DNA from: Syntrophus gentianae
GTDB lineage: Bacteria; Desulfobacterota; Syntrophia; Syntrophales; Syntrophaceae
NCBI RefSeq assembly: GCF_900109885.1
Contig: NZ_FOBS01000030.1
Span: 1 to 36,638 of the forward strand
Direction: 5' to 3'
Length of the DNA: 36,638 bases
Shown here piece after piece: positions 13,271-29,462 of this stretch; position 1 is the stretch's first letter; every line of letters begins with the position of its first letter. The notes below the pieces were generated by a model. It saw nothing but the letters and a program-made list of their open reading frames with translations. It ran no database searches and was not told where the DNA came from. The translations under genes and the position numbers were made by a program.

Positions 13271-14230
13271 TTATGAAATTGGTCCCTCTCTGTTCAATTT
13301 TCTTAAAATGAGCAGCAGGCTGCCCGGCAGACTGGCCAGCATAACGATGAGCATGAAACCGAGCGATTGCGCCGTCGCCTGGGTCGCCGAGATCCCAACC
13401 GCCCCGTACAATACAATGGACGTTCCCTGATTCACCCCGATACCATTAATGGAGATCGGCAACATGGACACCGCGCTGACCAGCGGAACAAAGATCATCA
13501 GGAAAAGCATATCCGCGTTTATCCCCAAGGCTTTAAAGACGGCCAGGTGCACCGCCACAACCGCGGCCTGGAAGACCACAGACAGCAGCAGGACGCAGGC
13601 CAGTGTTTGTCTGTCGCGGACGGGCGCCTGCAGCGCCGATCTTGCCTCTTCCACGTTCAATCTTATTTTATCCGTATTGATAAAAGAAATTCGGCGGGTT
13701 AGATGACCGACCCAGCGGATATCCAGAGACGCCCAGACAAGCAAGCCGCATCCGATACAAAAAAATGCGACCATCCAGGCAAACCTGCCGGTCATGCGAA
13801 ATCCAAACAGCAAACCGGCAACGGCAGAAACGGCGAGGGTTGCCATCGCCAAAACCCGTTCGGCAATTACGGAGGCTATTGCCTTCGGTGTCTCGCCGGA
13901 AATACGGGCCACATCATAGGCTCGAAACACATCGCCGCCCATGCTGGTCGGCAGGAAATTATTCAGGAACAGGCCGATAAAGTAGGACGACGTGAGCATT
14001 GGAACCGTGACCCGGACCTTTTGGGATTCCAGAATCAGTTGCCATTTGTATGCGCTGATCATAACAGCGCCGAATGTAGTCAGCAACGCCACGGCCCACC
14101 AGGCAGGATCGGAAAAACGGAACAATTCAGCCGCTTTCGAACAGTCCAGCTTGAAAAAAATGACCGTCAATAAAGCCAGGCTTATCAGGAGTTTCAGGGC
14201 AACGCTGGCAGCGGAGGATTTTTTCTTCAC
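13271..14230 (-). CDS. Flippase-like / LPG synthase transmembrane-domain protein
   Basis: A 319-residue polytopic membrane protein of the lysylphosphatidylglycerol-synthase TM-region family (TIGR00374/UPF0104 type). Typical features are FFKLDCSKAAELFRFSDPAWW after the first helix, NNFLPTSMGGDVFRAYDVAR around residue 95, and SAVSMLPISINGIGVNQGTS near the C-terminus. Members are thought to move or help move lipids. It starts with GTG at 14230, whose first base is the last base of the upstream stop codon (TAG), so it is translationally coupled to the TVP38 gene. The stop is 14 bases before the binding-protein start. Confidence 0.8.
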   Translation of the reverse strand: MKKKSSAASVALKLLISLALLTVIFFKLDCSKAAELFRFSDPAWWAVALLTTFGAVMISAYKWQLILESQKVRVTVPMLTSSYFIGLFLNNFLPTSMGGDVFRAYDVARISGETPKAIASVIAERVLAMATLAVSAVAGLLFGFRMTGRFAWMVAFFCIGCGLLVWASLDIRWVGHLTRRISFINTDKIRLNVEEARSALQAPVRDRQTLACVLLLSVVFQAAVVAVHLAVFKALGINADMLFLMIFVPLVSAVSMLPISINGIGVNQGTSIVLYGAVGISATQATAQSLGFMLIVMLASLPGSLLLILRKLNREGPIS

Positions 14231-14928
14231 TATTTGGCTTCCATCAGGCGTCGTTCGAAACGTTTCTTCAATGCCGCGCTGATGATAACCAGCGAAGTCA
14301 CCACCGCAAAGACAAAGAAAAGAACCTTGACCGTGCCGGACGCGCTTTGGCCAAGGTAGGAATAGACGATCGTCGCCGGCAACTGGCCGATCCCCGTAGC
14401 CACAAAGAATCCTCGGAAGGACATGCCTGTCAGTCCGGCCCCGTAGCTGATCGGATCAAACGGCACGAAGGGAAGCAGGCGGGCGATGACAATCGCGTGC
14501 TTGCCGTACTTCTCAAAGAACTTGTCAGCCAACTCAAGACTGTGCGCACCTGCCAGTTTCTCCACCAACGGCCGCCCGAAGATTCGGGAAAGATAGAAAC
14601 ATAAAGCGGCTCCTGCCATGGCGCTGCTCCACGACAGGAGCGTTCCCCACCATGCGCCGAATACAAGTCCATTGGTAAAGGTAATCACAAAGGCAGGCAG
14701 CGGAGCGATCACCGATTGAAAAACCATCAGGAGGGCCGAGGTAACCGGCGCCCAGGGGCCGAAGGATAAAAAGTAAGCCTTAAGGGCTGGGACATCAGCC
14801 TTGGAAAGAATCTTGAAGGCGTTATTGACGAAGGCATTGATATCCGGGACAAAGAAATAAAGGACGGTCAGCACCGCGAAGGCCGAAACGGTTCCCACCA
14901 GCATATTTTTCTGAATTCTATCCACCAA
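14230..14928 (-). CDS. TVP38/TMEM64 (DedA-like) membrane protein
   Basis: A 232-residue membrane protein of the TVP38/TMEM64 (VTT/SNARE-associated) family, lipid-scramblase-like proteins related to DedA. The family core is visible as PLPAFVITFTNGLVFGAWWG, a GAALCFYLSRIFGRP segment, and RLLPFVPFDPISYGAGLTGM. It starts at TTG 14928 or GTG 14925, with AGGAGG eight bases before the TTG. It is the first gene of the five-gene operon running down to 10786. In E. coli, TVP38 proteins (YdjX, YdjZ) flank YdjY, a homologue of which appears to be at 24949. Confidence 0.8.
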   Translation of the reverse strand: MVDRIQKNMLVGTVSAFAVLTVLYFFVPDINAFVNNAFKILSKADVPALKAYFLSFGPWAPVTSALLMVFQSVIAPLPAFVITFTNGLVFGAWWGTLLSWSSAMAGAALCFYLSRIFGRPLVEKLAGAHSLELADKFFEKYGKHAIVIARLLPFVPFDPISYGAGLTGMSFRGFFVATGIGQLPATIVYSYLGQSASGTVKVLFFVFAVVTSLVIISAALKKRFERRLMEAK

Positions 14929-14993: not shown

Positions 14994-15036
14994 GTAACGC
15001 CGGGATGGCAACAACACCTTTTCGTTCCCGGGTTAC
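14994..15036. repeat. Inverted repeat at the end of the CCG-domain gene
   Basis: GTAAC + CCGGGA (14994-14998, 15000-15005) pairs with TCCCGG + GTTAC (15026-15036), with one bulged base and a 20-base loop. It overlaps the stop codon at 15033-15035. There is no T-run, so it may be an intercistronic hairpin rather than a strong terminator. Confidence 0.4.
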
Positions 15037-16172
15037 AAGGCATGAATTGCCTTTTTGAAGCGCCACTTCAGGATCAGCCGGTTAAGATACGTTAAGGGGG
15101 TCTTGGAGACCTTGGCCCGCCCGGCCAGGGTTGCTTTGGGGTCACAGACAAAATCGACGATATGGCTGGTCGGAGTCAATCCGCTCAGAGAATTGGCGCA
15201 GCCGGCACAATAGGTCAGGATTCTTCTTCCCTTTGCCTCTTCCTTGATTCTTTTTCCCCAGTTGCCGGCCAATTCCGGCGACAGGCATGCGACGCTTCCC
15301 CCCTTGCCGCAGCAGTTCGTTCTCAAACCATGATGACTCAATTCCTCGATCCGCATACCCCCCTGAGTCACCAGACGCCGGACCGCCGTGTGAGCCCGTT
15401 CGTTGAAACGGAGTCCGCAGGGATCATGGATGGCAATGATTTGATCCCCTGGCAGATTCTCCGAATCCGGTTGTTCCGCCAGGAATTCATAGACGGTCAT
15501 TACGGAAAGCCCCTTTCCATATTCATCAAATATGCGGTAGCAATTGGGACAGGCTGCGATGACCTTCTTCACACCCTGGAAAACCAGGTCATTTCTCATT
15601 TTTCCGAACATGGTCTTGAAGTGCTCTTCCCGACCGAGGTCATGCGAAATCTTGTCGCAACAGTCCATAACGACACCCAACCTGGGGACTTTCAATTGCA
15701 TTTTCCTGAAGATACGAAAGGTCTGCTCCGGTCTCGTCCCCGGCAGGGCACAACCGGTGAAAAAAACCGTATCGCAACCGGCAGGCAGGGCGTAGCAAGA
15801 AAAGAGTTTCGAGTTCCCCGTTTTTTCGTAGGCCAGAAGGCCCCTTTGTTCAGGATAAGGACGGGGATCTCGCCGCATCCTTTCCCGGCGCATCTCCAGA
15901 AACATCTCCGCCGGATTGAGCTTCGCAGGACACACGGCAGCACACAGACGACACAGACTGCATTCGAAGGCCATGGCCTGGCAGAGGTTTTCCGTCAGAT
16001 TGTAGGCGTCGGCAATCTCTCCCGGTTTACCATACTTTCTCAAAAAGGCGCATTCCTTCTGGCAGGCCTGGCATCGAGTGCACCCTTTGGAAATCTCCTT
16101 TATTTTCTCCGATAGCGCAGCCCCGAGTTCTCGTGCGGCGAAAGGATCTGCTCCCGTATTGCCCGAATTCAT
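15033..16172 (-). CDS. CCG-domain Fe-S protein (HdrD/GlpC-like)
   Basis: A 379-residue soluble iron-sulfur protein. The N-terminal third has a double [4Fe-4S] ferredoxin (CTRCQACQKEC and CSLCRLCAAVCPAKL). Two cysteine-rich CCG domains follow: FFTGCALP ... GVVMDCCD ... CPNCYRIF, and IHDPCGLRF ... TNCCGKGGS ... CAGCANSL. This matches the HdrD/GlpC/LutA-type reductase subunits that bind a non-cubane cluster pair and exchange electrons with quinone, heterodisulfide or flavoprotein partners. HdrB-like function for the nearby HdrA is conceivable but unproved. I prefer ATG 16172 (GAGG six bases upstream) over ATG 16178. It lies 104 bases upstream of the TVP38 operon on the same strand. Confidence 0.8.
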   Translation of the reverse strand: MNSGNTGADPFAARELGAALSEKIKEISKGCTRCQACQKECAFLRKYGKPGEIADAYNLTENLCQAMAFECSLCRLCAAVCPAKLNPAEMFLEMRRERMRRDPRPYPEQRGLLAYEKTGNSKLFSCYALPAGCDTVFFTGCALPGTRPEQTFRIFRKMQLKVPRLGVVMDCCDKISHDLGREEHFKTMFGKMRNDLVFQGVKKVIAACPNCYRIFDEYGKGLSVMTVYEFLAEQPDSENLPGDQIIAIHDPCGLRFNERAHTAVRRLVTQGGMRIEELSHHGLRTNCCGKGGSVACLSPELAGNWGKRIKEEAKGRRILTYCAGCANSLSGLTPTSHIVDFVCDPKATLAGRAKVSKTPLTYLNRLILKWRFKKAIHAL

Positions 16173-16618
16173 CCCCATCCTCTAAGACCAACTCTCAGCC
16201 CAAATCTCGATGATCTCCATAAACCGTCATCGCAGTTTCACCTGCCATCTTTAATGGCATGTTCAAAGGTAAATGTACTGCCGTCGGAGAACTTGCCCTG
16301 CGAACCGGTCATTACATTGGCGCCAGGAATCGCGTAGTGTCCGTTGTCTTCGACCACGGTCTATTCCTTCTTTTTGTAAGGTTGCCTGCCAATATATTTT
16401 TCCCTCGAATAAGTCCAATCGATAAAAGGAATAATATAGCAGGGATTATTCTTTACAGGCAGAATGGGGGACCATCAGCCAACCGTCACGGGATGAATTC
16501 GAGAAGTTGATACAACTTGGATATCTATAACTATTATTGATTTGACATATAATCACTGGATATATAAGGAATCGGCAAAGTCAGACCGGAGCTAGGCATT
16601 AAGGAGGCGTAGAAATTC
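16173..16618. other. Divergent intergenic region with a small gene remnant
   Basis: The region lies between two divergent transcription units. On the minus strand 16238-16360 there is a coding-like frame without start, reading GANVMTGSQGKFSDGSTF then TFEHAIKDGR and a TGA; a TAG precedes it in frame. It looks like a gene tail of unknown family. A 6-base-arm hairpin TGCCAT/ATGGCA sits at 16243-16259. The right part is A+T-rich and holds the operon promoter candidate at 16542. Nothing else was found. Confidence 0.4.
16542..16568 (+). promoter_or_regulatory. Candidate promoter of the double-cubane operon
   Basis: TTGACA (16542-16547) is a perfect -35. TATAAG (16563-16568) lies 15 bases on, a short spacing. 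TATAAT directly after the -35 (16548-16553) could be an alternative -10. The ribosome site AAGGAGG follows at 16601-16607, before the ATG at 16619. Confidence 0.4.
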
Positions 16619-17302
16619 ATGATGAAAAATTCAAAATGGGCCCTTTTCATTTTAACCTTTACAGCCTTGTTCCTGGTTCATACCGCTTGGGCGGCGGAGA
16701 TTCCCAATCTGAAAGTGGGCTATATCTTCACAACCCATCACACCTCCTTCATGGTTGCGGCATCAAAGGGAGAAGCCTTCAAATCCATGGGCGTTTACCT
16801 GCGCCCCGTTGTTGCCAAGGACAAGTATGAACTGGTGAGCAACGGCAAGCCGATCGCCACGCTCCAGTTGTTCGTGGCAAAAAGCGGTGCGGAAACAGCG
16901 TCGCTCTTCGCACGGAATCAGCTCGATCTCGCCATGGCCTCGGTGACCGCCATCATGGCCGGGGTCGATAAAGGTACGCCGATAAAGATACTCTCTCCCC
17001 TCCAGACGGAAGGCATGGGCCTTGTGGTTCCCAAGGACTCCCAGCTCAAGGATTGGAATGCTTTCCTGGCCTATGTGAAAAAGACGAAGAAGCCCGTCAA
17101 GGTGGGCTACCACTCATCCACGAGTGCACCGAAGATCGTCCTGGAAGGCGCCCTGAAGTCCTCCGGAATCACGGTCACGGAAGATCCGACCAACATGTTG
17201 GCACAGGTTCTCCTCGTGGATCTGAAGGAAACCTGGAGCGGGAGGCTGCTTTTTCCCCGGCTGGAACAAAAGGATAAGGGAGGAAAGAAGAATGACGTTT
17301 AA
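16619..17302 (+). pseudogene. Periplasmic substrate-binding protein (NMT1/TauA-like), C-terminally truncated
   Basis: The 227-residue frame has a signal peptide (1-25, ending AWAA). Next comes the N-terminal lobe of a nitrate/sulfonate-type binding protein: LKVGYIFTTHHTSFMVAA, LFARNQLDLAMASVTAIMAG and VKVGYHSSTSAPKIVLEGAL. After MLAQVLLVDLKE the sequence turns into a basic tail (TWSGRLLFPRLEQKDKGGKK). About 100 residues of the second lobe are missing and do not appear in the other frames before the next gene. An internal deletion has joined it to the ribosome site of the next gene, whose ATG (17292) it overlaps. It may now serve only as operon leader. The original ligand is unknown. Confidence 0.7.
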
Positions 17303-18458
17303 TGTAGCGGATGTAAAACCTTTGATCAATGATGAGTTTTCCGGAGACGCGCCCAAACGGGCCCTCTCGTATATCGCGAACAAGCGCTCGATGGGCATGC
17401 CCGTGGCGGGAATTTACTGCGGCTATGCCCCCATGGAGGTGATCCGCGCCGTCGGGGCCGTGCCGGCCGTTCTGTGCGCCTTTGCCAACAAGACGATTCC
17501 GGCGGCGGAAGCGGTGCTGCCGGCCAATCTCTGCCCCCTGATCAAGTCGAGCTACGGGTTCATTCTTACCGATACCTGTCCCTTTTTCGCCCTTTCCGAT
17601 GCGGTCGTGGCGGAAACGACCTGTGACGGCAAGAAGAAGATGTTTGAGCTGATCTCCTCCCATCGGCCCATGTTCGTCATGGACCTGCCCCAGCTTCCCG
17701 ACGAGGCGGAGGCGAGGGCCAACTGGGCAACGATGATTTCCAAACTCAAGGGGTTCCTGGAGAACACCTTTGGCACGTCCGGAACATCGGAGGGCATCGA
17801 GGCGGAGATTCAGGCAACCAATATCAAGAACCGCCTGATGCGGCGCGTCTTTGAATATGCCGCAAAAAAACCTCCGCTCCTGAGCTGGAGCGAACTCTAC
17901 GAACTCTGCTTTCTTGCCCAGGTGGCAACGACGGAGGATCTTCTGCCCGTCTTCAAGGAAGTCTTAGAAAGGCTCGAAGAACGGGAGGCGAAGGGCATTT
18001 ATTACGGAGCCCCGTCCTCTCCCCGGGTGCTGGTCACGGGCTGTCCCGTGGGCGGAGATTCAACCAAGGTGTTCCGGATCATCGAAGAGGCGGGGGGCGT
18101 CGTCGTGGCCATGGATTCCTGCTCGGGCATGAAACCTTTTATTACCGACATCGAGGAAAAAACGGGGAATCCCATTGACGCCGTGGCCCGCCACTACCTC
18201 GAGATTCCCTGCTCCTGCATGACCCCAAATACAAGGCGGCTGACCGAGTTGGACAAGACGATCGCCCGTTTCCAGCCCGACGCGGTCGTCGAAGTGGTCC
18301 TTCATGCCTGCCACTCCTACAACATCGAAGCCATCAAAGTCATGAACCACGTGAAAGAAAAGCACAAACTGCCCTACCTGAAGATCGAGACGGATTACTC
18401 CGAAGGCGATGTCGAGCAGATCCGGACGCGGGTGGAGGCGCTCCTGGAAAGCCTATAA
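17292..18458 (+). CDS. Double-cubane-cluster anaerobic reductase, copy 1
   Basis: A 388-residue member of the 2-hydroxyacyl-CoA dehydratase superfamily, in the double-cubane branch that includes E. coli YjiM. In the characterised member, an [8Fe-9S] double cubane receives low-potential electrons from an ATP-driven activase and reduces small unreactive molecules. Conserved cysteines are C43 (YCGYAP), C62, C81 (NLCPLIKSSYGF), C96 (DTCPFF) and C111 (ETTCDGKKKM), then TGCPVGGD, DSCSGMK, IPCSCMTPN and HACHSYN. The C-terminus IETDYSEGDVEQIRTRVEA is the family signature. The ribosome site GGGAGG precedes ATG 17292. It is the first intact gene of the operon. The substrate is unknown; it differs from the single-cluster benzoyl-CoA reductase and hydroxyglutaryl-CoA dehydratase subunits by these motifs. 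Confidence 0.85.
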   Translation: MTFNVADVKPLINDEFSGDAPKRALSYIANKRSMGMPVAGIYCGYAPMEVIRAVGAVPAVLCAFANKTIPAAEAVLPANLCPLIKSSYGFILTDTCPFFALSDAVVAETTCDGKKKMFELISSHRPMFVMDLPQLPDEAEARANWATMISKLKGFLENTFGTSGTSEGIEAEIQATNIKNRLMRRVFEYAAKKPPLLSWSELYELCFLAQVATTEDLLPVFKEVLERLEEREAKGIYYGAPSSPRVLVTGCPVGGDSTKVFRIIEEAGGVVVAMDSCSGMKPFITDIEEKTGNPIDAVARHYLEIPCSCMTPNTRRLTELDKTIARFQPDAVVEVVLHACHSYNIEAIKVMNHVKEKHKLPYLKIETDYSEGDVEQIRTRVEALLESL

Positions 18459-18507
18459 TATTGGATGGAATGGAAGAGAATCTTCTCGACATAAAAGGAC
18501 TTTCAAG

Positions 18508-19689
18508 GTGACGCAAACGGCCCTGGCAGAAATTCCGCCTCTAATCGATGATGCCCAGGTTGCGGACCCCATCCGACGCTTCCTGGAGTACATTCTGAAC
18601 AAGAGGGAAGCGGGGGTCCCCGTGGTCGGCCTCTATTGCGGCTACGCACCGGCAGAGATGATCCGGGCCATTGGCGCTGTTCCCGTCTCCCTCTGCGCCG
18701 CCTCGCAACGGACGGTTCCCGCCGCGGAAGCGGTCCTGCCCGCCAACCTCTGCCCGATGATCAAATCCAGCTTCGGATTCATCCGGACCAATACCTGCTT
18801 CTTCTTTGCCGCCTCCGATGCCGTCATCGGCGAAACAACCTGCGACGGCAAGAAGAAGATGTTCGAGTTGATCGCCCATCTCAGACCGACACATATCATG
18901 GATCTCCCCCAGCTTCCCGATGAAGCGGGGGGATTGGACCGCTGGCAGGAAAGTGTCCGCAAGCTTCAGGACTTTCTGGAAAAGACCTTTCAGGCCGCCC
19001 TTTCCGCAGATCGGCTGGAGGCGGAGATCCGGGAGACCAATCGCAAGAACCGCCTCATGGACCGCTTTTTCGCCTACCTGGCCTGTCGCCCGATCCCGGT
19101 CTCCTGGCATGAGATCTACGATGTCATCAGCCTCGAACATGTGACGAACGGCGATGAATTTCAGAACCTGATCGAAAAGGTTTCCTCCCGGCTTGATCAG
19201 CGGATTGCCTCGGGTCAATTTTTCGGGACTTCTTCTTCCCCGCGGGTCCTGGTCAGCGGCTGTCCCGTCGGGGGGGATGCCTGCAAGGTCCTGCAGATGA
19301 TCGAAGAGGCCGGAGGGGTGATTGTGGCCCTGGAGGCATGCAGCGGAATGAAGAACTATTTCATCAGGATCGAGGAGGATAGCGGTGATCCCCTGAGGGC
19401 CGTGGCGGAAAGCACCCTGAGCATCCCCTGCTCCTGCATGACGCCGAATGGACGCCGCCTGGATCTGCTGGACAAGATGATTACCCGGTTTTCACCCGAT
19501 GTGGTCATCGATGTCGTCCTGCACGCCTGCCACGCCTACAACGTGGAGTCCCACAAGATTCGCAATCATATCCAGGATCGGCACGGATTGCCCTGTTTGA
19601 AGATCGAAACGGACTACTCTCACGGTGACATCGAGCAGATCCGGACCAGGGTGGAGGCCCTGTTTGAAAGCCTGGAAACCAAAAAATAA
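18508..19689 (+). CDS. Double-cubane-cluster anaerobic reductase, copy 2
   Basis: A 393-residue paralogue of the preceding gene, colinear throughout, sharing blocks such as LYCGYAP, LPANLCPMIKSSFGF, ETTCDGKKKMFELI, SGCPVGGD and IETDYSHGDIEQIRTRVEA. Cluster-region cysteines are C44, C63, C82, C97 and C112. I start it at GTG 18508, because AAGGA (18495-18499) lies eight bases before it and the upstream part of the longer frame has no family resemblance. It lies 49 bases after copy 1. As tandem copies these two could form a heterodimer or act on different substrates. Known family members are homodimers. Confidence 0.82.
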   Translation: MTQTALAEIPPLIDDAQVADPIRRFLEYILNKREAGVPVVGLYCGYAPAEMIRAIGAVPVSLCAASQRTVPAAEAVLPANLCPMIKSSFGFIRTNTCFFFAASDAVIGETTCDGKKKMFELIAHLRPTHIMDLPQLPDEAGGLDRWQESVRKLQDFLEKTFQAALSADRLEAEIRETNRKNRLMDRFFAYLACRPIPVSWHEIYDVISLEHVTNGDEFQNLIEKVSSRLDQRIASGQFFGTSSSPRVLVSGCPVGGDACKVLQMIEEAGGVIVALEACSGMKNYFIRIEEDSGDPLRAVAESTLSIPCSCMTPNGRRLDLLDKMITRFSPDVVIDVVLHACHAYNVESHKIRNHIQDRHGLPCLKIETDYSHGDIEQIRTRVEALFESLETKK

Positions 19690-19706
19690 AGAGCAGGAGG
19701 AATATC

Positions 19707-20987
19707 ATGGCGGATTATACAAAAATGTGGTCGGAACTCGGCCTTGACCTGAAAAGTCACGACGCGCTGCTGTCCATTCTGGGAAGCGCCTATGGAGACA
19801 TCTTTCTTTCCCAGAAAAACCGCCCCGGGGGGATGAAGTATTTCGACTTTGTCATGAGCGAGGTGCACGGACTGCGCATCCAGGAGTTGATGGAGGCAAA
19901 GGCCCAGGGAAGGATCGTCGTCGGTTCGTATTGCGTGTTCGTCCCGGAAGAACTGATCCTGGCCGTGAACGGGGTATCCGTGGGATTGTGCGCCGGGGCG
20001 GAATTCAATTTCGAAGGCGCCGAGGAGGTCCTGCCGAGGAACACCTGCGCGCTCATCAAGTCCGCCTTCGGGTTCAAGCTCGGCAAGGTCTGCCCCTACC
20101 TGGAAGCGTGCGATGTGGTCGTGGGAGAGAACACCTGCGATGGCAAGAAGAAGGCTTATGAGATCCTGGGACCGATGGTCAAGGATCTGTACGTTATCGA
20201 TCTTCACCAGACGAAATCCGAGATGGGCCGGGCGTTATTGAAGGAGGAATACCGCAGGTTCGCCACGAAGCTGGAGAACGTCAGCGGCAGGAAGATCACC
20301 CCGGAATCCCTTAAAAAGGGGATCGAAATCGTCAATGCGAAACGAGCGGCCGTAAAAAGGCTTGCGGCGATCCGTGCGGCCGACCCGGCGCCGATCTCCG
20401 GTCTGGATGGCCTGCTCGTCAATCAGGTCTTTTTCTATGATGATCCGATCCGCTTCACCGATTCGGTCAACAAGCTCTGCGACGAGCTGGAAGACCGCGT
20501 GAAAAAAGGGATGGGCGTCGTCGCGCCGGGGACGACGCGGGTCATGGTTTCCGGATGCCCCATGGCCGTTCCCAACTGGAAGCTGCCCATGCTGATTGAA
20601 TCGAGCAACGCGGTCATCGTGGGCGAGGAATCCTGCGTAGGAGAGCGGGGAACGCGCTGGCTGACCGAATCCAAAGGCGATACGGTGGAGGATCTCCTCG
20701 ATACGATCACGGAACGGTATTTCAGCATCGACTGTGCCGTTTTTACGCCAAATCCCTCCCGGATCGATTATGTGAAGGAAATGGCAAAAAGGCTCTCCGC
20801 CCAGGGCGTAATTCATTACGGCCTTCAGTTCTGTCAGCCTTACATCATGGAAAGTGGTCCCGTCGAGAAAGAGCTGGAGAAGTCGGGCATCCCGACGCTC
20901 CGGTTGGAAACCGATTACAGCCAGGAAGACGCGGGGCAGCTCAAGACGCGGATCGAAGCCTTTGTCGAGCGGTTGGAGAAAAAATGA
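19707..20987 (+). CDS. Double-cubane-type anaerobic reductase, divergent copy 3
   Basis: A 426-residue member of the same superfamily with a longer N-terminus (about 30 extra residues) and clear divergence. It keeps YCVFVPEEL (C76), LPRNTCALIKSAFGF (C114), CP (C129), an extra C135, ENTCDGKKKA (C144), SGCPMAVPNW and LETDYSQEDAGQLKTRIEA. It replaces the IPCSCM pair of the other copies with IDCAVF, and HACHSYN with QFCQPYIMES. So its cluster ligands or active site probably differ. A strong ribosome site AGGAGG precedes ATG 19707. Its end overlaps the activase start by four bases, so the activase is translationally tied to this copy. Confidence 0.8.
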   Translation: MADYTKMWSELGLDLKSHDALLSILGSAYGDIFLSQKNRPGGMKYFDFVMSEVHGLRIQELMEAKAQGRIVVGSYCVFVPEELILAVNGVSVGLCAGAEFNFEGAEEVLPRNTCALIKSAFGFKLGKVCPYLEACDVVVGENTCDGKKKAYEILGPMVKDLYVIDLHQTKSEMGRALLKEEYRRFATKLENVSGRKITPESLKKGIEIVNAKRAAVKRLAAIRAADPAPISGLDGLLVNQVFFYDDPIRFTDSVNKLCDELEDRVKKGMGVVAPGTTRVMVSGCPMAVPNWKLPMLIESSNAVIVGEESCVGERGTRWLTESKGDTVEDLLDTITERYFSIDCAVFTPNPSRIDYVKEMAKRLSAQGVIHYGLQFCQPYIMESGPVEKELEKSGIPTLRLETDYSQEDAGQLKTRIEAFVERLEKK

Positions 20988-21724
20988 GAGTCGCCGGAAT
21001 AGACATCGGATCACGGACCGTCAAGCTGGCCATTCTCGATGATGGAAAGCTCGTCCTCTCCCGTAAGACGCTCACGTCTTACAATCCCCTGGAAACGGCC
21101 CGGGAACTGATCGGCGACGCCGTATTCGACGCGCTCACCGCCACCGGATACGGCCGCCATTTGATCAAGGGGCATCTGGACTGCCCGGTGATCAGCGAGA
21201 TCAAGGCCTTTGCCGTAGGCTCCCGTTTCTTTTCCCACGATTGCCAGTCCATCCTGGACATCGGCGGACAGGACACGAAAGCCATTTCCCTGGACAGCGA
21301 CGGGAACATGCGGAAGTTCGAAATGAACGACAAGTGCGCCGCAGGAACGGGACGTTTCCTGGAGGTTATGGCGACGGCCCTCGGCTTTTCCCTGGAAGAA
21401 TTCTCCCAGGCGGCGCTTTCGGCCGAAAAGGCGGTCAAGATCAACAGCACCTGCACCGTTTTTGCCGAATCCGAGGTGGTGTCTCTGACCGCCAAGGGTG
21501 TGCCGCGCAATGAGGTGGCCCTGGGCATTCACAAGGCCATCGTAAGCCGTTCGGTAGGCCTCCTAAAAAAGGTCGCCGTGCCGGGGACCATATTTTTTGC
21601 CGGCGGCGTCGCACTGAACGGCTGCGTGCAGGTTCTTCTCGAACAGGAGATGGACAGCCCCGTGTTTGTTCCACCCGACCCGCAGATCGTGGGGGCCGTC
21701 GGGGCCGCGCTGAATGCATTATGA
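20984..21724 (+). CDS. ATP-dependent activase (BadF/HgdC/YjiL family)
   Basis: A 246-residue ASKHA-fold ATPase that energises electron transfer into dehydratase and double-cubane partners. It shows the phosphate-1 motif GIDIGSRTVKLAI at 4-16, the DIGGQDTKAI motif in the middle, and adenosine-region GGVALN near the C-terminus. The two cysteines that hold the single [4Fe-4S] between subunits of the homodimer are present in MNDKCAAGTGRFLE and NSTCTVFAESEV. Its start overlaps copy 3 (ATGA) and its stop overlaps the fusion gene (ATGA). It is the only activase in the operon and presumably serves all three reductases. Confidence 0.88.
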   Translation: MRVAGIDIGSRTVKLAILDDGKLVLSRKTLTSYNPLETARELIGDAVFDALTATGYGRHLIKGHLDCPVISEIKAFAVGSRFFSHDCQSILDIGGQDTKAISLDSDGNMRKFEMNDKCAAGTGRFLEVMATALGFSLEEFSQAALSAEKAVKINSTCTVFAESEVVSLTAKGVPRNEVALGIHKAIVSRSVGLLKKVAVPGTIFFAGGVALNGCVQVLLEQEMDSPVFVPPDPQIVGAVGAALNAL

Positions 21725-24690
21725 GATACGAAAACCGGTTTTCCGGATCGGCTTCCTTATGCTATGATCCGACCATGAATTTGATTAACCAGTGGCAGCG
21801 CGTCGAATTCGACTCTATCCCGATCTATATCCGTCCCGATGTTCCGGGATGGTTCGTGCCCAATGAGGCGGCGGATCACGCCTTGGTTCAGCTGCGGAAG
21901 GAAGGGAAGACCTCCCTTGACATTGCGGATCTGCTGAAGCGGATTGATGGCCCGGAAGGAGAGAGCTATTCCTCCCGCTCCGAACACCTGAACCTGGATG
22001 TCCTCAAGGAATGCTGGCTCCACATCACCAATCGCTGCAATCTGGAATGCCGGCATTGCATGTTCAAGTCCTCGCCCCGCGAGAGGGATGAACTCCAACG
22101 GGAAGAATGCTGCCGGATTCTCCGCGAGGCCTACGGACTGGGTTGCCGGCTCTTTTTTTTCACCGGCGGCGAACCCCTTCTGGCCGAAGCCTTTTTTCCA
22201 AGCGTGCAGGATATCCTGCGTCTTTCCGACACCCACGTGGTGGTCCTGACCAATCTCTCCCTGCTTCCGGTGAAAAAAGATTTTTTCCGCCTCCTTCCCC
22301 AGGACCGACTGCATTTTCAGGTAAGCGTCGACGGCCTGGAATCTAACCATGACGCCTTACGGGGACCGCAGTCTTTCCGGCAATTGAGCGAAAATCTCGC
22401 GATTCTCCGGGAACTCGGCTTTCCAGCGACCCTTTCCATGACCGTGACCCGTTCCAATGTCGGGGAAATGGCAGAGATCATCGATTTTGCCTCCAGTCAG
22501 TGCGTTTCCAATGTCCATTTCCTCTGGCTTTTCAGAAAAGGCAACGCAAACGAGGGTTTTTTTGTCGATCCGGACAAGATTTTCCTTAACCTTAAAGCCG
22601 CCTGGGAGCGGGCGGAACGGCTGGGGGTAAAGATCGACAACATCGAAAGCATCCGGTCGCAGGTCTTTTCCTGCCCCGGGACGCGGTATGACTTGAGCAA
22701 TGCGGGATGGCAATCGCTGGCCATCGGGCCGGATGGCCAGGTTTACCCGACGCCGGCGCTCGTCTACACGGAAAGGATGCGCTGCGGTCCGGTCTCTGAA
22801 GGACTGCAGGAGGTATGGGAAAACAGCCCCGTTCTAAAAGCCGTCCGCAACGCCTCCCTGGATACCAGCAAGGTCTATCGGGCCAATCCCTTCCGATATA
22901 TGATCGGCGGCGGCGACATTGATCACAGCTATCTTTCTTCCGGACAAATTGCCGGGGACGATCCCTATGGGGAGCTCTACACGACTATCGCCAAAGAGCT
23001 CATCGTGCGCGAAGCCCGGCAATACGAAACCGGCGGCTACCCCGCCTTCAAACTAAAAATGGGGGAAAAGCTGGGGGAATGCCCCGTCGAAGGCAGCGCC
23101 GTGTTCTTCACCCACTCCAATTGCGTGCTCACCCTGCCGGGGCACGACATCCACACCCAGGTCAATCGTTTCTATTCCGGAGCGGCTGAAACCCTCCAGG
23201 AAGACATCCTCAACCCGATCTGCTACGAGGAAGGCCTTATCTCTCACATTCCGGAAGAGATGCGCTATCGGAGTTACGGCTGCGGTTCACCGGTCCTGGA
23301 AGCCAATATACAGCCAGGGGAATCCATCGTCGACCTAGGAAGCGGCACGGGCATCGAATGCTTTATCGCCGGCAGATTGACCGGGACTCAGGGCCGAGTC
23401 ATCGGCATCGACATGGGCGATGCCATGCTCGACGTTGCCGAAAAGACCAGAGTTCGGGTGACGGAAAGTCTTTCCTACGATAACATCATCTTCAAAAAGG
23501 CTTTCCTGGAAAGCCTGCCTCTAGACGACCGGTCCGTGGATTTAGTGATCTCCAACTGCGTTTTGAACCTTTCTCCAGACAAACGCCGGGTATTTCAGGA
23601 GATATACAGGGTGTTGAAACCGGGAGGTCGTCTGCTCATCTCCGATATCACCTATGATCAGGACATCCCCCTGGAAATCAAATACAATGAGAAACTGCGG
23701 GGAGAATGCATCGGCGGTGCGCTGCGCTACCCGGATCTTTTCGGTCTGCTCAATGACCTCGGATTTTCGCACAGCAGGATTGTCTCGGGATATCCCTACC
23801 GGACAGTGAAAGGGTACGATTTCTATTCCATCACCTATTCGGCGGTCAAGCCCGCGGAAAACCAGCAACCGGTTCTCTATGACTTTCCCGATTTTGAATC
23901 CCTTATGGAAGAGGTTGAAACCGAACCGACCTGCGCCTGCTTTGCGGCACCGGAACAGCCCTCACAAAAGCCGGCTTTGAACGATGCCCCCCACAGGTCC
24001 GGCTGCCTGGTCTGCGGCGCTGAACTTCTCTATTTTGATGTGGACCGAAGCCTGTCTTGCTCTTACTGTGGACGCTCCCTGCCGGCCAACGCCCAATGCG
24101 CCAATGGACATTTTGTCTGCGATACCTGCCACAGCGCCGATGCCGTGGGAATTATCCGGCAGGTCTGTCTGAACAGCCGGGAAACCGATGCTGTCGTACT
24201 GATGCAGAAGATCCGGTCCCACCCTCATTTCCGGATCCATGGTCCCGAGCATCATTCACTGGTTCCCGCCGTCATTTTGACGGCCTTGCGAAACTCCGGA
24301 GACGATATTTCGGATGAACAGATTCTCACGGGAATCCAACGGGGACAAACGATTGCCGGGGGGGCCTGTGCCTTCCTCGGGGCCTGCGGCGCTGCGATCG
24401 GCGTCGGGATCGCCTTTTCCGTCCTGACTGCGGCAACCCCCTACGATGGAGAAAAGAGACAGACCGTTCAGCAGGCGACCCGGAAGGTGCTCGGGGAGAT
24501 CGCCTCCTATGAGGCGCCCCGCTGCTGCCAGAGGGATTCCTGGCTGGCCATTCAGGCGGCTTCGCGCATATTCGAAGAAAAGCTGGGGAAATTCTTGAGA
24601 GCGGATCGAGCGCTCGCCTGCGAACAGTTTCCCCAAAACAAGGAGTGCATCTTGAATCGATGCCCTCTCTGGCCGCACAGGGAGGAATAA
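21721..24690 (+). CDS. Radical SAM - ArsM-like methyltransferase - DUF5714 fusion
   Basis: A 989-residue cytosolic three-part enzyme. Residues 1-95 are an N-terminal domain of PqqD/RRE-like look. Residues 98-360 are a radical SAM domain with CNLECRHC (C106, C110, C113) and FFTGGEPLL. The SPASM-like part reads GPDGQVYPT where a Cys is usual. Residues ~495-690 are an arsenite-methyltransferase-like domain: SAM site VDLGSGTGIE at 537, with the three As(III)-ligand contexts YGCGSP (C521), SNCVLNL (C613) and ECIGGAL (C663). From about 760 there are zinc-ribbon pairs (CLVCG, CSYCG, CDTC) and a DUF5714 domain (GPEHHSLVPAVILTAL, GACAFLGACGA). It is translationally coupled to the activase; the ATG at 21721 has no ribosome site and M19 (21775) is an alternative. 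It probably modifies and methylates a metalloid or sulfur compound; this is inference. Confidence 0.8.
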   Translation: MRYENRFSGSASLCYDPTMNLINQWQRVEFDSIPIYIRPDVPGWFVPNEAADHALVQLRKEGKTSLDIADLLKRIDGPEGESYSSRSEHLNLDVLKECWLHITNRCNLECRHCMFKSSPRERDELQREECCRILREAYGLGCRLFFFTGGEPLLAEAFFPSVQDILRLSDTHVVVLTNLSLLPVKKDFFRLLPQDRLHFQVSVDGLESNHDALRGPQSFRQLSENLAILRELGFPATLSMTVTRSNVGEMAEIIDFASSQCVSNVHFLWLFRKGNANEGFFVDPDKIFLNLKAAWERAERLGVKIDNIESIRSQVFSCPGTRYDLSNAGWQSLAIGPDGQVYPTPALVYTERMRCGPVSEGLQEVWENSPVLKAVRNASLDTSKVYRANPFRYMIGGGDIDHSYLSSGQIAGDDPYGELYTTIAKELIVREARQYETGGYPAFKLKMGEKLGECPVEGSAVFFTHSNCVLTLPGHDIHTQVNRFYSGAAETLQEDILNPICYEEGLISHIPEEMRYRSYGCGSPVLEANIQPGESIVDLGSGTGIECFIAGRLTGTQGRVIGIDMGDAMLDVAEKTRVRVTESLSYDNIIFKKAFLESLPLDDRSVDLVISNCVLNLSPDKRRVFQEIYRVLKPGGRLLISDITYDQDIPLEIKYNEKLRGECIGGALRYPDLFGLLNDLGFSHSRIVSGYPYRTVKGYDFYSITYSAVKPAENQQPVLYDFPDFESLMEEVETEPTCACFAAPEQPSQKPALNDAPHRSGCLVCGAELLYFDVDRSLSCSYCGRSLPANAQCANGHFVCDTCHSADAVGIIRQVCLNSRETDAVVLMQKIRSHPHFRIHGPEHHSLVPAVILTALRNSGDDISDEQILTGIQRGQTIAGGACAFLGACGAAIGVGIAFSVLTAATPYDGEKRQTVQQATRKVLGEIASYEAPRCCQRDSWLAIQAASRIFEEKLGKFLRADRALACEQFPQNKECILNRCPLWPHREE

Positions 24691-24695
24691 CCGAA

Positions 24696-24920
24696 ATGAA
24701 TGCGCAACAGTACTGCGTTTTTCTCTTTCCTTCCGTCAGTTATGTCCTCAAGGCGGAAAAGATCCTCAAAGACCGGAAAATTGATCATAAGCTTATTCCC
24801 GTTCCCCGGCAGATCAGTGCGGATTGCGGGGTCTGCCTCCGGATTGCCGTGGACCAGCAGGAAATCGTGGTTGGAATGCTTCAGGGGACAGCAGACTGGG
24901 AAAGCATGGTATTGCTGTAG
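24696..24920 (+). CDS. Putative Se/S carrier-like protein (DUF3343 family)
   Basis: A 74-residue protein of the DUF3343 type. It has an alternating strand/helix pattern YCVFLFPSVSYVLKAEKILK, then KLIPVPRQISADCGVCLRIA. The CGVC pair (residues 44-47) is in the place where this family carries a reactive cysteine, and members are annotated as putative selenium or sulfur carriers. The ATG at 24696 is chosen because GGAGGA (24681-24686) lies nine bases upstream. It is the last gene of the operon, six bases after the fusion gene. It may deliver persulfide or selenide to the reductase/methyltransferase system; that role is inferred from family and context only. It faces the YdjY-like gene 28 bases away. 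Confidence 0.75.
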   Translation: MNAQQYCVFLFPSVSYVLKAEKILKDRKIDHKLIPVPRQISADCGVCLRIAVDQQEIVVGMLQGTADWESMVLL

Positions 24921-24948
24921 ATTTTCGTAAACTTGAATGTTGGAAAGA

Positions 24949-25674
24949 TCAGGCAGCCAACCGATAAAAGACAACGATCGGAACGGCCTCTTTGTTCGGG
25001 AGCCTCTCCGGTTTCCCGCGAAAGGAAGAATTGGGGCGCAGCATCCGCTGCAGCGTGCTGAGGTGGGGATAGACGGCATTGCTCGATATGCCGATGGGGC
25101 AGGATTCCAGGCAGGTGAGGCAACCCGTTTTCTTTTCCGCCGCAATGGCCCTGTTTCCGCCGAAACGGATATCGAACCCCTTCCCCGCCGAATCATAAAA
25201 GATCTCGTGAAGGCTGACCGGTGTCGGAAGGCCCGGCCATTGAGCGGACAGGATCAGGCGATCCCCGCCGATAAATTTGCCGTACCCATCGAGGGGAAGA
25301 TTATTGCCGGCCCTGGCTCCAATCCGGACCAGGGCGTCATGGAAGGCAACCGGTTCCGCAGAAGACACCAGGATAAACTTGTCGGCAAGCTTCCCTCCGG
25401 AATAACCGATTCCCCAGTGAGAGGTCGTCTCCGTAAGGTGGCGCAGCTGAAGCTTCGTGTACAGTTTAACGATGCGTCTTGCCGTGTCGACCATGATGGG
25501 GTTTCCGGGCATCGGCCAGCCTCCGGGCCAGTCCCTTCCGCCGGAAGAGATTGGGGCTGCCTCCAGGAGACCCTGCGGCCCGAGAAGAACAGCCCCGCTG
25601 GCGAGCAGCAGAGAACGAAGAAAGTCCCGCCGGGAGAATCCCGGCAATGGGACAGTTGAAATTCGTTCTCTCAT
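24949..25674 (-). CDS. Tat-exported YdjY-like Fe-S protein
   Basis: A 241-residue exported protein. The Tat signal is SRRDFLRS (14-21) followed by a hydrophobic segment to LLEAAP. The mature domain resembles E. coli YdjY, a ferredoxin-like periplasmic protein. Its C-terminal part has GGNRAIAAEKKTGCLTCLESCPIGISSN, with cluster cysteines C185, C188 and C192. The central SWGIGYSGGKLADKFILVSS-like region is soluble beta-rich sequence. It is the last gene of a minus-strand operon behind rhodanese and DoxX-type genes. Because folded Fe-S proteins use Tat, the cluster is probably inserted before export. Function unknown; periplasmic electron transfer linked to sulfur or selenium is inferred. Confidence 0.6.
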   Translation of the reverse strand: MRERISTVPLPGFSRRDFLRSLLLASGAVLLGPQGLLEAAPISSGGRDWPGGWPMPGNPIMVDTARRIVKLYTKLQLRHLTETTSHWGIGYSGGKLADKFILVSSAEPVAFHDALVRIGARAGNNLPLDGYGKFIGGDRLILSAQWPGLPTPVSLHEIFYDSAGKGFDIRFGGNRAIAAEKKTGCLTCLESCPIGISSNAVYPHLSTLQRMLRPNSSFRGKPERLPNKEAVPIVVFYRLAA

Positions 25675-25710: not shown

Positions 25711-26223
25711 CTATTTGACACTTTCCACGGGATAGCCCGCCTGATCCCAGGCCATGATTCCACCGGGATGGCGATAAACGTTCTTGTAACCCAGCTTCAC
25801 GGCCCACATGGCGCCGTTGTGGCTCCGGGTGCATTTCACAAACCCGCAGTAGAAAACGACCAGGCGATTCTTGTCCGGACCCAGGAGCTTTTCCAGGGTG
25901 GCCTTTTTGCCGTCATCCAGGCTGGTCATCTCCGGAATGGGAAATTCCATCTGCACCGCTCCCGGAACATGCTGTTTCTTGTAACTTGCCTCATAAGGCA
26001 TGGTATCGACGATCAGCATCGGGGTCTTTTTATCCATCCAGCTTTTCAGCTCTTCCGTGGTAACGAGCTTGTAATTTCCCCGGTCCACTTCCCGGGCCAG
26101 GGTGACAGCGCTCTTTTCCGTTTCCAGTTCCTTCGTTCCCCAGGCCGCCAAGGCGTTGCCTGTAATCCCAAGCAAAAAGACAGCGAGGGTTGCCAGAATC
26201 CACAAACTTCTCTTCTTGAACAT
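25711..26223 (-). CDS. Periplasmic rhodanese-like sulfurtransferase
   Basis: A 170-residue exported single rhodanese domain. Signal peptide 1-26 ends ALAA. The domain shows LIVDTMPYEASYKKQHVPGA and an active-site loop starting at C126 (YCGFVKCTRSHN), with a second cysteine at C131. The end NVYRHPGGIMAWDQAGYPV is typical. It probably carries a persulfide and passes sulfane sulfur, or selenium, in the periplasm. It sits 36 bases upstream of the YdjY-like gene and 12 bases downstream of the DoxX-type gene, all one operon. Confidence 0.85.
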   Translation of the reverse strand: MFKKRSLWILATLAVFLLGITGNALAAWGTKELETEKSAVTLAREVDRGNYKLVTTEELKSWMDKKTPMLIVDTMPYEASYKKQHVPGAVQMEFPIPEMTSLDDGKKATLEKLLGPDKNRLVVFYCGFVKCTRSHNGAMWAVKLGYKNVYRHPGGIMAWDQAGYPVESVK

Positions 26224-26235
26224 CTTTCTTCTCCT

Positions 26236-26727
26236 TTACAATTTATTTTTATCTGTCGGCCCAATTTCCGGGGCTTTCTCTTTCTTGAGGCGCATCCAAC
26301 GGGAAAGATAGAGATAAGGGATCACGATACCTGCAATTGCCAGGTCCCGATAGAAGGCGAGCCGTAACCCTGCTTGCTTGTCCAACTCCTCGGCCCCGAA
26401 GCATCCACAGTCCACGTCCAGATTCTGGAGGATGCCATAGCCCAGGACCGCCAGAAAAAGGAAAAAGAGCCCGGCAATCGTTGCGAGACTACCCCGTAGG
26501 TCAAAGACAAGGGCGAGGCCGGCCAGGAGTTCCACAATGGGCAATCCAATGGCCACAACGGGCAATAGGGCGTCCGGAACGAGATCATAAGCGGAGAGGG
26601 TACGGGCGAAGGCATGGGGATCGAGGAGCTTGACGACGCCGCCATAGACGAACAGGACGGCGAGTGCGAGGCGAATTCCCCGGTAGATCCAAAGGGAGGA
26701 AAGCAGTTTGACGATGCTATTCCACAA
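26236..26727 (-). CDS. DoxX/MauE-type membrane protein
   Basis: A 163-residue protein with four predicted helices. It is of the MauE/DoxX family, redox-linked membrane proteins that accompany thiol and sulfane-sulfur enzymes. The first helix with FVYGGVVKLLDPHAFARTL, the PIVELLAGLALVF helix and the exposed DVDCGCFG loop (C107, C109) are characteristic. The C-terminus is charged and cytosolic. The frame starts with TTG (26727), with GGAGC about ten bases upstream. It heads the operon with rhodanese and YdjY-like genes, and a good promoter lies at 26790-26818. It probably reduces or relays electrons to its exported partners. Confidence 0.75.
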   Translation of the reverse strand: MWNSIVKLLSSLWIYRGIRLALAVLFVYGGVVKLLDPHAFARTLSAYDLVPDALLPVVAIGLPIVELLAGLALVFDLRGSLATIAGLFFLFLAVLGYGILQNLDVDCGCFGAEELDKQAGLRLAFYRDLAIAGIVIPYLYLSRWMRLKKEKAPEIGPTDKNKL

Positions 26728-26905: not shown

Positions 26906-27670
26906 TCAAGCTTTGAAAGGAGAAGAAGCGGAAGGAGATTCTTTTACCGGGGAGGGAAAAGGCGCAGTCCGTGAGGAGGGATAAAATTTGAGGAGTTTCT
27001 CCGAAGGGACGCCTAGGAGAAAGAGAAGGACAAGGCACCAGTTTCGCAGGGTGCAGTACAGAATCCCCTCCTGCTCCCAGCGGCGGGCGGAGGTGACGAC
27101 AGGATCGTCCAGAATGACGAGGCGGCCTTTCCGCTTGCTTATGCGGCGCATGAGATCCAGGTCCTCCATGATGGGCACATTCCGAAATCCCCCAAGGGCA
27201 TGAAAAGCCGTCTTCCGAACAAAGATCCCCTGGTCGCCATAGGGAAGACCCAAATACCTGGATCGATAGGAGACGAATTTTTCGATGACCCGGAAGGGAT
27301 GCCGCCGGGAATCGATGACCAATCGAAAGGCGCCCCCAATAATCTGCCGGTCCTTCATGGCCGCAGCGATCTTTTTGAAGGCCCCTGCAGGCAGGCGGGT
27401 GTCGACATGAAGGAAAAGCAGAATTTCGCCCTTTGCCAGGGATGCCCCCCGATTGAACTGAATCCCTCGCCCCTTTTCCGACAGGACCGTCTGAACGATA
27501 CCGTTCCGGGTGTCCCGGATTTCCCGGATCGTTGCCCCGGCAGAATCGCCGTCCACCACAATAACCTCCATAGCAGCTCCTGCCGCTATATCAAGGACGT
27601 GCCCAATCGTATTATTGATGAGGGAGGATTCGGAAAAGACGGAGATAATAACAGAGAAATCCGGATTCAT
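26906..27670 (-). CDS. TIGR04283-type family 2 glycosyltransferase
   Basis: A 254-residue GT-A glycosyltransferase. It has the N-terminal SVIISVFSESSLINNTI and VIVVDGDSAGAT nucleotide-binding region, the metal-binding region GEILLFLHVDTRLP, the GGAFRLVID and LPYGDQGIFVRKTAF segments, and a MEDLDLMRRI acceptor-side motif. This pattern is that of the TIGR04283 group, which is associated with radical SAM/selenium or arsenosugar gene clusters. That makes its presence near an ArsM-like domain notable. Start ATG 27670 has AAGGGA upstream. The C-terminus after about 235 is a Pro/Ser-rich tail. The sugar donor is unknown. Confidence 0.78.
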   Translation of the reverse strand: MNPDFSVIISVFSESSLINNTIGHVLDIAAGAAMEVIVVDGDSAGATIREIRDTRNGIVQTVLSEKGRGIQFNRGASLAKGEILLFLHVDTRLPAGAFKKIAAAMKDRQIIGGAFRLVIDSRRHPFRVIEKFVSYRSRYLGLPYGDQGIFVRKTAFHALGGFRNVPIMEDLDLMRRISKRKGRLVILDDPVVTSARRWEQEGILYCTLRNWCLVLLFLLGVPSEKLLKFYPSSRTAPFPSPVKESPSASSPFKA

Positions 27671-28380: not shown

Positions 28381-28911
28381 CTACAGTCCTTTCTTTTCAA
28401 ACCAGAGGAACAGGGAAATCGTACCCGCCCAGAAGAGGGCAATCACGACCCAGGGTGAAAGACCGGTCACCTCCGGCAGCCCGATCTTGCCGAAGTTTTT
28501 CCAGGCGAGAACCGTGGATTTAAAAAAGGGATAGAGTTCAGCATACAGAGCGGCCCCGGCAATCATGCCCAGGACGGCAAAAATAGCATGCCAGCGCCCC
28601 TCTCCAAGGGCGCCGACGGAAGTTCCTGGACAGAACCCCATGACGGCCCATCCGGCGCCGAACAGGGCACCTCCCAGCACTACGGCGCCGACATTCATGG
28701 GTTTGTGGCCTAAGGATATGATTCCGGCATTCGACAGCAGAGTGATCCCCACCATGCCGACGAGAATGGATGAAAGCATGAACTTCAGAATGGTCATGTC
28801 CTTCAGCAACAGGGCGCCGAGTTGTTTGTCATAACGGAGAACGCGCCCCTTCTGCAGCAGAAACCCGAAAAGCACCCCTGTTATCAGCCCCAGTATCTGT
28901 TCCGTGCTCAT
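28381..28911 (-). CDS. YeeE/YedE-family transporter, half 2
   Basis: A 176-residue membrane protein, half of the YeeE/YedE (TsuA-like) sulfur-compound transporter family. It has TGVLFGFLLQKGRVLRYDKQLG at the N-terminus and the signature GGALFGAGWAVMGFCPGTSVGALGEG near residues 85-110, whose cysteine is part of the thiosulfate path in characterised members. It starts at ATG 28911 with AAGGAGG upstream. It overlaps the partner half-gene by four bases (ATGA), so the two probably assemble as a heteromer. Substrate could be thiosulfate, sulfide-derived sulfur or selenium species; family members of both kinds exist. Confidence 0.85.
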   Translation of the reverse strand: MSTEQILGLITGVLFGFLLQKGRVLRYDKQLGALLLKDMTILKFMLSSILVGMVGITLLSNAGIISLGHKPMNVGAVVLGGALFGAGWAVMGFCPGTSVGALGEGRWHAIFAVLGMIAGAALYAELYPFFKSTVLAWKNFGKIGLPEVTGLSPWVVIALFWAGTISLFLWFEKKGL

Positions 28912-29462
28912 GACGGCCTCCTTCCATAGACAATCGCGGCAACGAGAACGCCTACGCCGAAGAACATCGCCAGCGCCACAAAGGCGCTGACCGACAGCTG
29001 CATCATACCGCTGAGCCCATGGCCGCTGGGGCAGCCGTCCGCCATCCGGGCGCCCACCATGGCGACCATGCCTCCCAGAAAGGCCCCGGTGGCCCGCTTC
29101 CCGATCGACGGACCAAACCGCTTTTTCCAAATCGGTGGAACCCCCTCCAGCTTGAAACTCTTGTCCGAAAGGGAAGAAATCAGCGCCCCCAGGAAAATGC
29201 CGCAAACCAGCATGAACTGCCAATCAACGCGAACCTTTTCCTTGGTGAAGTACTCGTTCAACGACACATGCTCTCCGGCAACGGTTCGCTCAAGAAGGCC
29301 GGCCGCCCGGACAAATGTCGTCGATGCCCCCAGATAGGTTGATTTCCCGAGCAGTTCGGTTGTTGCCCACACGGAGACAATGGCCAGAATTCCCACAAGA
29401 GCCCCGGCAAGGTAAGGGCTCCACCCCCCATTCGCTGTTTTCTTTTTCATCTTCCTTTCCAT
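28908..29462 (-). CDS. YeeE/YedE-family transporter, half 1
   Basis: A 184-residue membrane protein of the same family. It has an N-terminal membrane helix after a basic start, a long loop (about 45-85), and the signature GGMVAMVGARMADGCPSGHGLSG, containing the conserved cysteine of the sulfur path. I start it at ATG 29462, because AAGGAG ends six bases before it; the ATG at 29468 directly touches the ribosome site. It is coupled to the second half. A -10-like TATAAT sits 100 bases upstream at 29566-29561. Two-gene YedE arrangements are common in anaerobes near sulfur genes. Confidence 0.85.
   Translation of the reverse strand: MERKMKKKTANGGWSPYLAGALVGILAIVSVWATTELLGKSTYLGASTTFVRAAGLLERTVAGEHVSLNEYFTKEKVRVDWQFMLVCGIFLGALISSLSDKSFKLEGVPPIWKKRFGPSIGKRATGAFLGGMVAMVGARMADGCPSGHGLSGMMQLSVSAFVALAMFFGVGVLVAAIVYGRRPS

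Follow-up and report, generated by a model that had tools for sequence, protein, structure and literature searches.

The window, i.e. the whole stretch of 36,638 nucleotides analysed here, comes from the anaerobic bacterium Syntrophus gentianae (contig NZ_FOBS01000030.1; its genome is called G000 below). It carries on the + strand an operon of six genes (Table 1) encoding three double-cubane-cluster reductases (H1, H2 and H3), an activase, a fusion of a radical S-adenosylmethionine (SAM) domain with an ArsM-like methyltransferase and the Cys-rich DUF5714 domain, and a DUF3343 protein. In coordinates and family matches, these genes are as given in a preliminary description of this DNA, which proposed that they act in one pathway. 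That a selenium-type reductase operon holds here an organoarsenical-type fusion, which elsewhere takes the place of ArsS, is better supported than the single-pathway reading. The arrangement is not due to chance, given the match scores and the identical gene order in G073, a complete genome of the same genus (one contig of 3,179,300 bases).

Table 1. Genes of the operon and features flanking it in the window
Feature	Position	Strand	Evidence
H1, double-cubane-cluster reductase copy 1	17292..18458	+	NF040772, 451 bits (cutoff 350); tree
H2, double-cubane-cluster reductase copy 2, sister type of H1	18409..19689	+	NF040772, 445 bits; tree
H3, double-cubane-cluster reductase copy 3, type of solved 6eno protein	19707..20987	+	NF040772, 456 bits; 6eno, 462 bits; tree
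Activase, BadF/HgdC type	20984..21724	+	TIGR00241, 229 bits (cutoff 125); 1hux, 165 bits
Fusion, radical SAM + ArsM-like methyltransferase + Cys-rich DUF5714, 989 codons	21721..24690	+	profile matches; conserved Cys in alignment of 31 fusions
DUF3343, putative Se/S carrier	24696..24920	+	PF11823, 70.7 bits (cutoff 25)
Remnant of NMT1-like ABC binding protein, ~205 of 368 residues	16619..17302	+	Pfam NMT1_2; blastn/tblastn against G073 and G074
Dicluster/CCG Fe-S protein, related to NF045663 (below its cutoff)	15033..16178	-	
VTT (DedA-like) membrane protein	14230..14928	-	PF09335
Flippase-like protein (LPG_synthase_TM)	13271..14230	-	PF03706
YdjY-domain protein	24949..25674	-	NF040466; weak Tat-signal match PF10518, below cutoff
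Rhodanese-like protein, related to TsoB (below cutoff)	25711..26223	-	
MauE/DoxX membrane protein	26236..26727	-	PF07291
TIGR04283 family arsenosugar biosynthesis glycosyltransferase	26906..27670	-	227.8 bits (cutoff 182)

G074 and G075 also belong to this genus, and matches to the fusion (E 1e-60) were found in three of the 155 genomes of the order, all of this genus. The gene order in G073 is binding protein, permease, ATPase, H1, H2, H3, activase, fusion and DUF3343. G074 has the binding protein, permease, H1, H2, H3, activase and DUF3343 genes and no fusion, the stop of the activase overlapping the start of DUF3343. As the operon exists without the fusion in G074 and with it in G000 and G073, the fusion either entered an operon that was already there or was lost from one. 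In G075, the contig starts inside the fusion gene, its 5' side being cut, and a small ferredoxin-like gene (named by reading its sequence) follows the fusion instead of DUF3343; pieces of H1/H2 are on other contigs. Reductases, activase, fusion and DUF3343 were seen in one locus only in G000 and G073, and the general co-occurrence envisaged in the preliminary description was not borne out. A widely conserved reductase-fusion operon was rejected, since none of the 32 fusion loci outside the genus has any reductase, activase or DUF3343 gene. A double-cubane protein over cutoff is encoded somewhere in 20 of these 32 genomes, a count that stands without a base rate.

An intact importer is located 5' of the first reductase in G073, with a binding protein, a permease (PF00528) and an ATPase assigned by reading the Walker motif of its open reading frame (ORF). 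Relative to G073, the window has a deletion of ~2.08 kb that removed the permease and nearly all of the ATPase. The remaining ORF (16619-17302) is the first part of the binding protein and not a working member of the operon.

Reductases, activase and selenium-linked genes

All three reductases pass the NF040772 cutoff (Table 1). Ordinary hydroxyacyl-CoA dehydratases or benzoyl-CoA reductases were rejected: the models listed for these enzymes score at most 118 bits (best 117.6 versus a cutoff of 700), versus cutoffs of 421-750. The double-cubane assignment of the preliminary description is supported by the NF040772 scores and by matches to the solved double-cubane cluster protein (DCCP; PDB 6eno), which cover nearly the full length for H3 and reach 243 and 244 bits for H1 and H2, respectively. 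The 6eno chain has 11 cysteines, of which eight (C76, C95, C114, C129, C144, C309, C341 and C374) recur in the three copies. C343 is absent only in H3, and conservation of C91 and C257 is poor among the 67 sequences compared. In the tree of these 67 sequences, a phylogeny of the three copies that the preliminary description had called for, H1 and H2 are sister types inside a clade of 38 rows (support 100/100), and H3 groups with DCCP (20 rows, support 90/98, at a fork that is not starred and carries a long-branch warning).

The activase adjoins the reductases and is over the TIGR00241 cutoff. It is expected to be their ATP-dependent electron donor. The locus thereby resembles DCCP and its reductase (DCCPR; PDB 7yyl), the window activase being related to the activase chain of 7yyl. 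Unlike DCCP/DCCPR, the window has three reductase copies per activase, the fusion and DUF3343 are additional members of the operon, and H1 and H2 form a clade of their own without the first part of DCCP. Elsewhere, H3-like reductases commonly pair with an activase in a unit of two genes, as in all 14 loci fetched, among which DUF3343, YedF and SclA have one occurrence each. G000 encodes five HGD-D proteins, two of which lie outside the operon and sit together on contig C7. This pair (G000:C7:442-4749) is flanked by two activase-like genes.

Matches to H1 were found in 39 of the 155 genomes of the order (E 1e-60) and in 37 of 395 genomes drawn evenly from the phylum (E 1e-75). A subset of them was used as H1-type loci, 33 in number, defined by a match of at least 450 bits and including the window, G073 and G074; of 40 loci, ten were excluded, eight because they match H1/H2 with less than 450 bits and two because they had been fetched around TIGR04282, and the broken H1/H2 contigs of G075 were likewise left out. 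Within ~6 kb of the 33 loci, DUF3343 was found at 21, YedF at 19, a SclA-like protein at 11, an activase at 10 and an ArsS locus at six, the neighbour families having been assigned from two loci. The SclA-like protein, similar to selenocysteine lyase/cysteine desulfurase, is over the TIGR01977 cutoff and under that of SclA. A selD gene with one in-frame TGA was present in all 17 genomes tested, G000 included. Lin et al. 2015 (PMC5322559) link DUF3343, YedF and a selenocysteine lyase, with an HGD-type protein and an activase, to selenium, and DCCP/DCCPR are mentioned in a figure legend of a second paper (PMC10418091), the figure dealing with selenium genes close to mlp clusters. The window shares DUF3343, the HGD-type reductase and the activase with the set of PMC5322559, and YedF and the SclA-like protein join these in relatives of the same order. 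It differs from the set by its three reductases and by the lack of YedF and SclA-like genes near the operon in its genus. These neighbourhoods suggest that the reductase module belongs, in the relatives, to selenium/sulfur mobilisation.

The fusion enzyme and its relation to ArsS

The radical SAM domain of the fusion carries CxxxCxxC, and its cysteines are kept in 30 of 31 aligned fusions, the remaining row being cut there. Its SPASM match is below the Pfam cutoff (20.1 versus 21.5). The solved relatives that score best are SkfB and PqqE for this part, and arsenite methyltransferases for the methyltransferase part. C521 (YGCGSP) and C663 (GECxGGA) of the latter, which we take to be catalytic, occur in all 31 fusions and align to ArsM structures; C501 is present in nine of the 31. 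The linker cysteines C454 and C468 are invariant, as are most cysteines of the DUF5714 part wherever the row is not cut. This part, which probably holds a metal or metalloid, is matched by the model of the metal-binding double selenoprotein MbdU (NF045648) with 137 bits. Unlike MbdU, the fusion is far below the cutoff of that model (600) and joins the domain to radical SAM and ArsM-like domains; the window fusion contains no in-frame stop and therefore no selenocysteine codon.

A structure model of DUF5714 built from one sequence was discarded (mean predicted local distance difference test score, pLDDT, of 40.6). Comparison of DUF5714 with the C_GCAxxG_C_C profile gave a probability of 39.6% one way and 5.8% in reverse, over only 35 columns. 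DUF5714 is a separate reading frame beside a radical SAM-ArsM chain in G366 (L058) and G307 (L075). Another radical SAM-methyltransferase fusion, of 828 aa, with an N-terminal PqqD match and no DUF5714 match, is found in G170 (L086:8455-10941). The ArsM motifs YGCG, GEC and N-terminal CC are all present in this protein; in its genome, TIGR04282 was found and ArsS gave no match. A scan of genome contigs with the fusion yielded one weak locus, in a metagenome-assembled genome of Cloacimonadota, matching the methyltransferase part. In a full-text library search of partial coverage, no paper was found that contains both 'radical SAM' and 'DUF5714', nor one that describes this fusion.

Like ArsM plus ArsS (TIGR04167), the fusion combines a methyltransferase with a radical SAM enzyme and has the same neighbour families. 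Unlike that pair, it is one chain, its radical SAM part falls outside the ArsS family, DUF5714 is added and the ArsM part is devoid of the two CC motifs. In the phylum sample, the fusion query matched 47 of the 395 genomes (E 1e-50); in 33 of them, picked by hand from the match rows and belonging to 18 families, the radical SAM-ArsM chain is present. Two candidates per genome were scored for the fusion, five for ArsS and up to eight for TIGR04282, and weak copies may be missed. TIGR04282 is present in 188 genomes and ArsS in 120. TIGR04282 was found in 33 of 33 fusion genomes versus 155 of the 362 genomes lacking the fusion (Fisher p 4.6e-12), and among the 188 TIGR04282 genomes ArsS was found in one of 33 with the fusion versus 113 of 155 without it (p 1.6e-14), rows not being phylogenetically independent in either comparison. 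This near-exclusion of ArsS by the fusion is the distribution expected if the fusion fulfils the role of both ArsM and ArsS. In three families (f54, f62 and f109), some members have the fusion and others ArsS. Within the genus, G000 and G073 have the fusion and no ArsS, G074 has neither and no TIGR04282, and G075 has both. For G000, no TIGR04167 match was obtained at E 1e-40, with the five best candidates scored. Its TIGR04282 gene is on another contig, C1, and TIGR04283 is near the operon, the combination by which we recognise an arsenosugar-type locus.

Neighbouring genes were counted with score thresholds set by hand. At the 32 fusion loci, four of which are contigs of 5-11 kb, TIGR04283/GT2 was found nine times, TIGR04282/DUF2064 eight, DUF3047 three, VTT seven and a Pyr_redox enzyme 10 times. 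The corresponding numbers are 5, 4, 2, 6 and 7 for 20 ArsS loci, and 0, 0, 0, 1 and 0 for the 14 reductase-activase loci. Any of these five families is present at 18 of the 32 fusion loci, 11 of the 20 ArsS loci and one of the 14 reductase-activase loci, the last being shorter stretches; none of 20 arbitrary stretches of 18-20 kb elsewhere on fusion-bearing contigs holds one. None of the 32 fusion loci outside the genus has ArsS nearby. Of the 20 ArsS loci, three have ArsM as a gene of its own next to ArsS. In many genomes, the ArsS gene contains a single in-frame TGA that is read through (selenoprotein form); in others it has none.

The reductase module and the arsenosugar-type context of the fusion also meet without the fusion: six of the 33 H1-type loci lie beside ArsS. 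At these loci, from three genera (G036, G029, G054, G055, G056 and G350), H1, YedF and DUF3343 genes adjoin ArsS, TIGR04283-like and TIGR04282-like genes, and DUF3047 is also present at five. Of the genomes that reach at least 450 bits in an H1-type match and lie outside the genus, 23 were tested for ArsS and nine have it (G029 as a partial match below cutoff); in six of the nine it adjoins H1. We estimate that, in a genome of ~3 Mb, such proximity of two unrelated loci would arise in roughly 1% of cases. Around the operon, G073 has, as the window does, genes for TIGR04283, MauE, rhodanese, YdjY, VTT, flippase and dicluster Fe-S proteins, to which TIGR04282 is added.

Interpretation of the locus

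Our favoured explanation, which we hold with about even confidence, is that two modules are joined here: the fusion would stand in for ArsM plus ArsS, and the reductase set would perform a linked reduction of Se/S or As. The ArsM-like domain would methylate As(III) (arsenite) held on C521/C663, and the arsenical may be bound or handed on by the Cys-rich DUF5714 and the linker cysteines. The methylated arsenic would then receive a SAM-derived carbon group from the radical SAM domain. The TIGR04282/TIGR04283 transferases and the membrane proteins could elaborate and move the product. In arsenosugar biosynthesis, arsenic is adenosylated by a radical SAM enzyme, according to PMC12159101. As the radical SAM part of the fusion falls outside the ArsS family, this would be a convergent replacement. 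The other module (importer, H1, H2, H3, activase and DUF3343) would carry out ATP-driven reductions at low potential, its activase driving electrons into the reductases. The make-up of this module favours a selenium or sulfur species as their putative substrate, an arsenical being possible. Since the fusion is placed between activase and DUF3343 in two genomes of the genus, both modules are probably expressed together, perhaps by co-transcription. If the fusion is such a stand-in, it would constitute a second, independently evolved entry into complex organoarsenicals, spread over 18 families of the phylum sample, and the question is testable with one enzyme. Double-cubane reductases adjoining arsenosugar-type loci would give these nitrogenase-like reductases a candidate biological context.

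Several observations weigh against this explanation. Both the fusion and ArsS are held by G075 and by G493, the sole such genome among the 33, and neither occurs in 42 of the 188 genomes with TIGR04282, so that there may be yet another alternative enzyme. None of the five neighbour families is present at 14 of the 32 fusion loci, and DUF3343 is lacking at 12 of the 33 H1-type loci. In the window, G073 and G074, YedF and the SclA-like protein were not found in the ~6 kb around the operon to which the search was confined, and the ABC importer is destroyed in the window. The ArsM-like part is below the cutoff of the ArsM subfamily PRK11873 (210.9 versus 263 bits). The N-terminal CC and C-terminal CC of the ArsMs adjoining ArsS are missing in the window fusion and in two other fusions compared; one of three such ArsMs has a single Cys at the N-terminal CC place. 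Finally, arsenic chemistry in this lineage is a prediction from genes, 'arsenosugar' being the NCBI name of the transferase families.

The metalloid/chalcogen context put forward in the preliminary description holds, with the reductase module accompanied by selenium genes in relatives and the fusion by arsenosugar-type genes. Its observation of the locus was right, and its interpretation as a single pathway is supported only in part. According to that interpretation, the three reductases, the activase, the fusion and DUF3343 act together on one metalloid/chalcogen substrate, and the fusion enzyme either obtains its intermediate from the reductases or hands it to them. The identical order in G000 and G073, the H1-type reductases adjoining ArsS in three genera and the double-cubane proteins encoded in 20 of the 32 genomes with a fusion outside the genus are in line with it, but the operon lacks the fusion in G074, a ferredoxin-like gene follows the fusion in G075, and neither H1/H2/H3 nor activase nor DUF3343 accompanies the fusion outside the genus. 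Non-co-occurrence, which the preliminary description had itself named as refuting, weakens the single pathway, the six H1-type loci beside ArsS keep it alive, and we consider it unlikely. Similarly doubtful is a double-cubane system inside organoarsenical/organoselenium biosynthesis, in which H1/H2/H3 would reduce the As/Se intermediate of the fusion at very low potential and DUF3343 would carry it.

Selenium could also be the element throughout, the fusion methylating or adenosylating a Se species, the reductases making selenide for selD, and TIGR04282/TIGR04283 serving an organoselenium pathway. These two families were first named for their association with a radical SAM/selenodomain protein, and YedF, the SclA-like protein and DUF3343 at H1-type loci, as well as selD in every genome tested, point in the same direction. 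The invariance of the ArsM-type cysteine motifs, the arsenite methyltransferases as best-scoring solved relatives and the adenosylation of arsenic in arsenosugar biosynthesis mentioned above argue against selenium, and we judge this scenario somewhat less probable still than the single pathway. The radical SAM relatives SkfB and PqqE, together with the PqqD match of the 828-aa protein of G170, could instead suggest a maturase of the type acting on ribosomally synthesised and post-translationally modified peptides (RiPPs; as SkfB or PQQ synthesis protein E), with the methyltransferase and DUF5714 tailoring a peptide. No PqqD match was found in the N-terminal parts of six fusions tested, that of the window included, and the ArsM-type cysteines are invariant; judged by these two features, peptide modification appears very improbable.

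Gene starts and flanking features

Of the ATGA couplings reported in the preliminary description, the activase overlap at 20984 stands. The one at 21721 is probably accidental and ATG 21775 the likelier start of the fusion, because G073 has no such overlap and its match begins at residue 19 of the window protein. Judged by eye from the sequence, the start of H2 is probably GTG 18508, where its likeness to H1 begins. A scan of 16100-25000 gave two promoter-like sites (3.7 expected), none of them upstream of the operon, and 18 terminator-like sites (10.1 expected). Relatives of the dicluster/CCG protein also adjoin some fusion loci and some ArsS loci. A sulfur transport (YeeE/TsuA-like) protein is encoded at 28381-29223, among the flanking genes of the - strand near the rhodanese and MauE genes.

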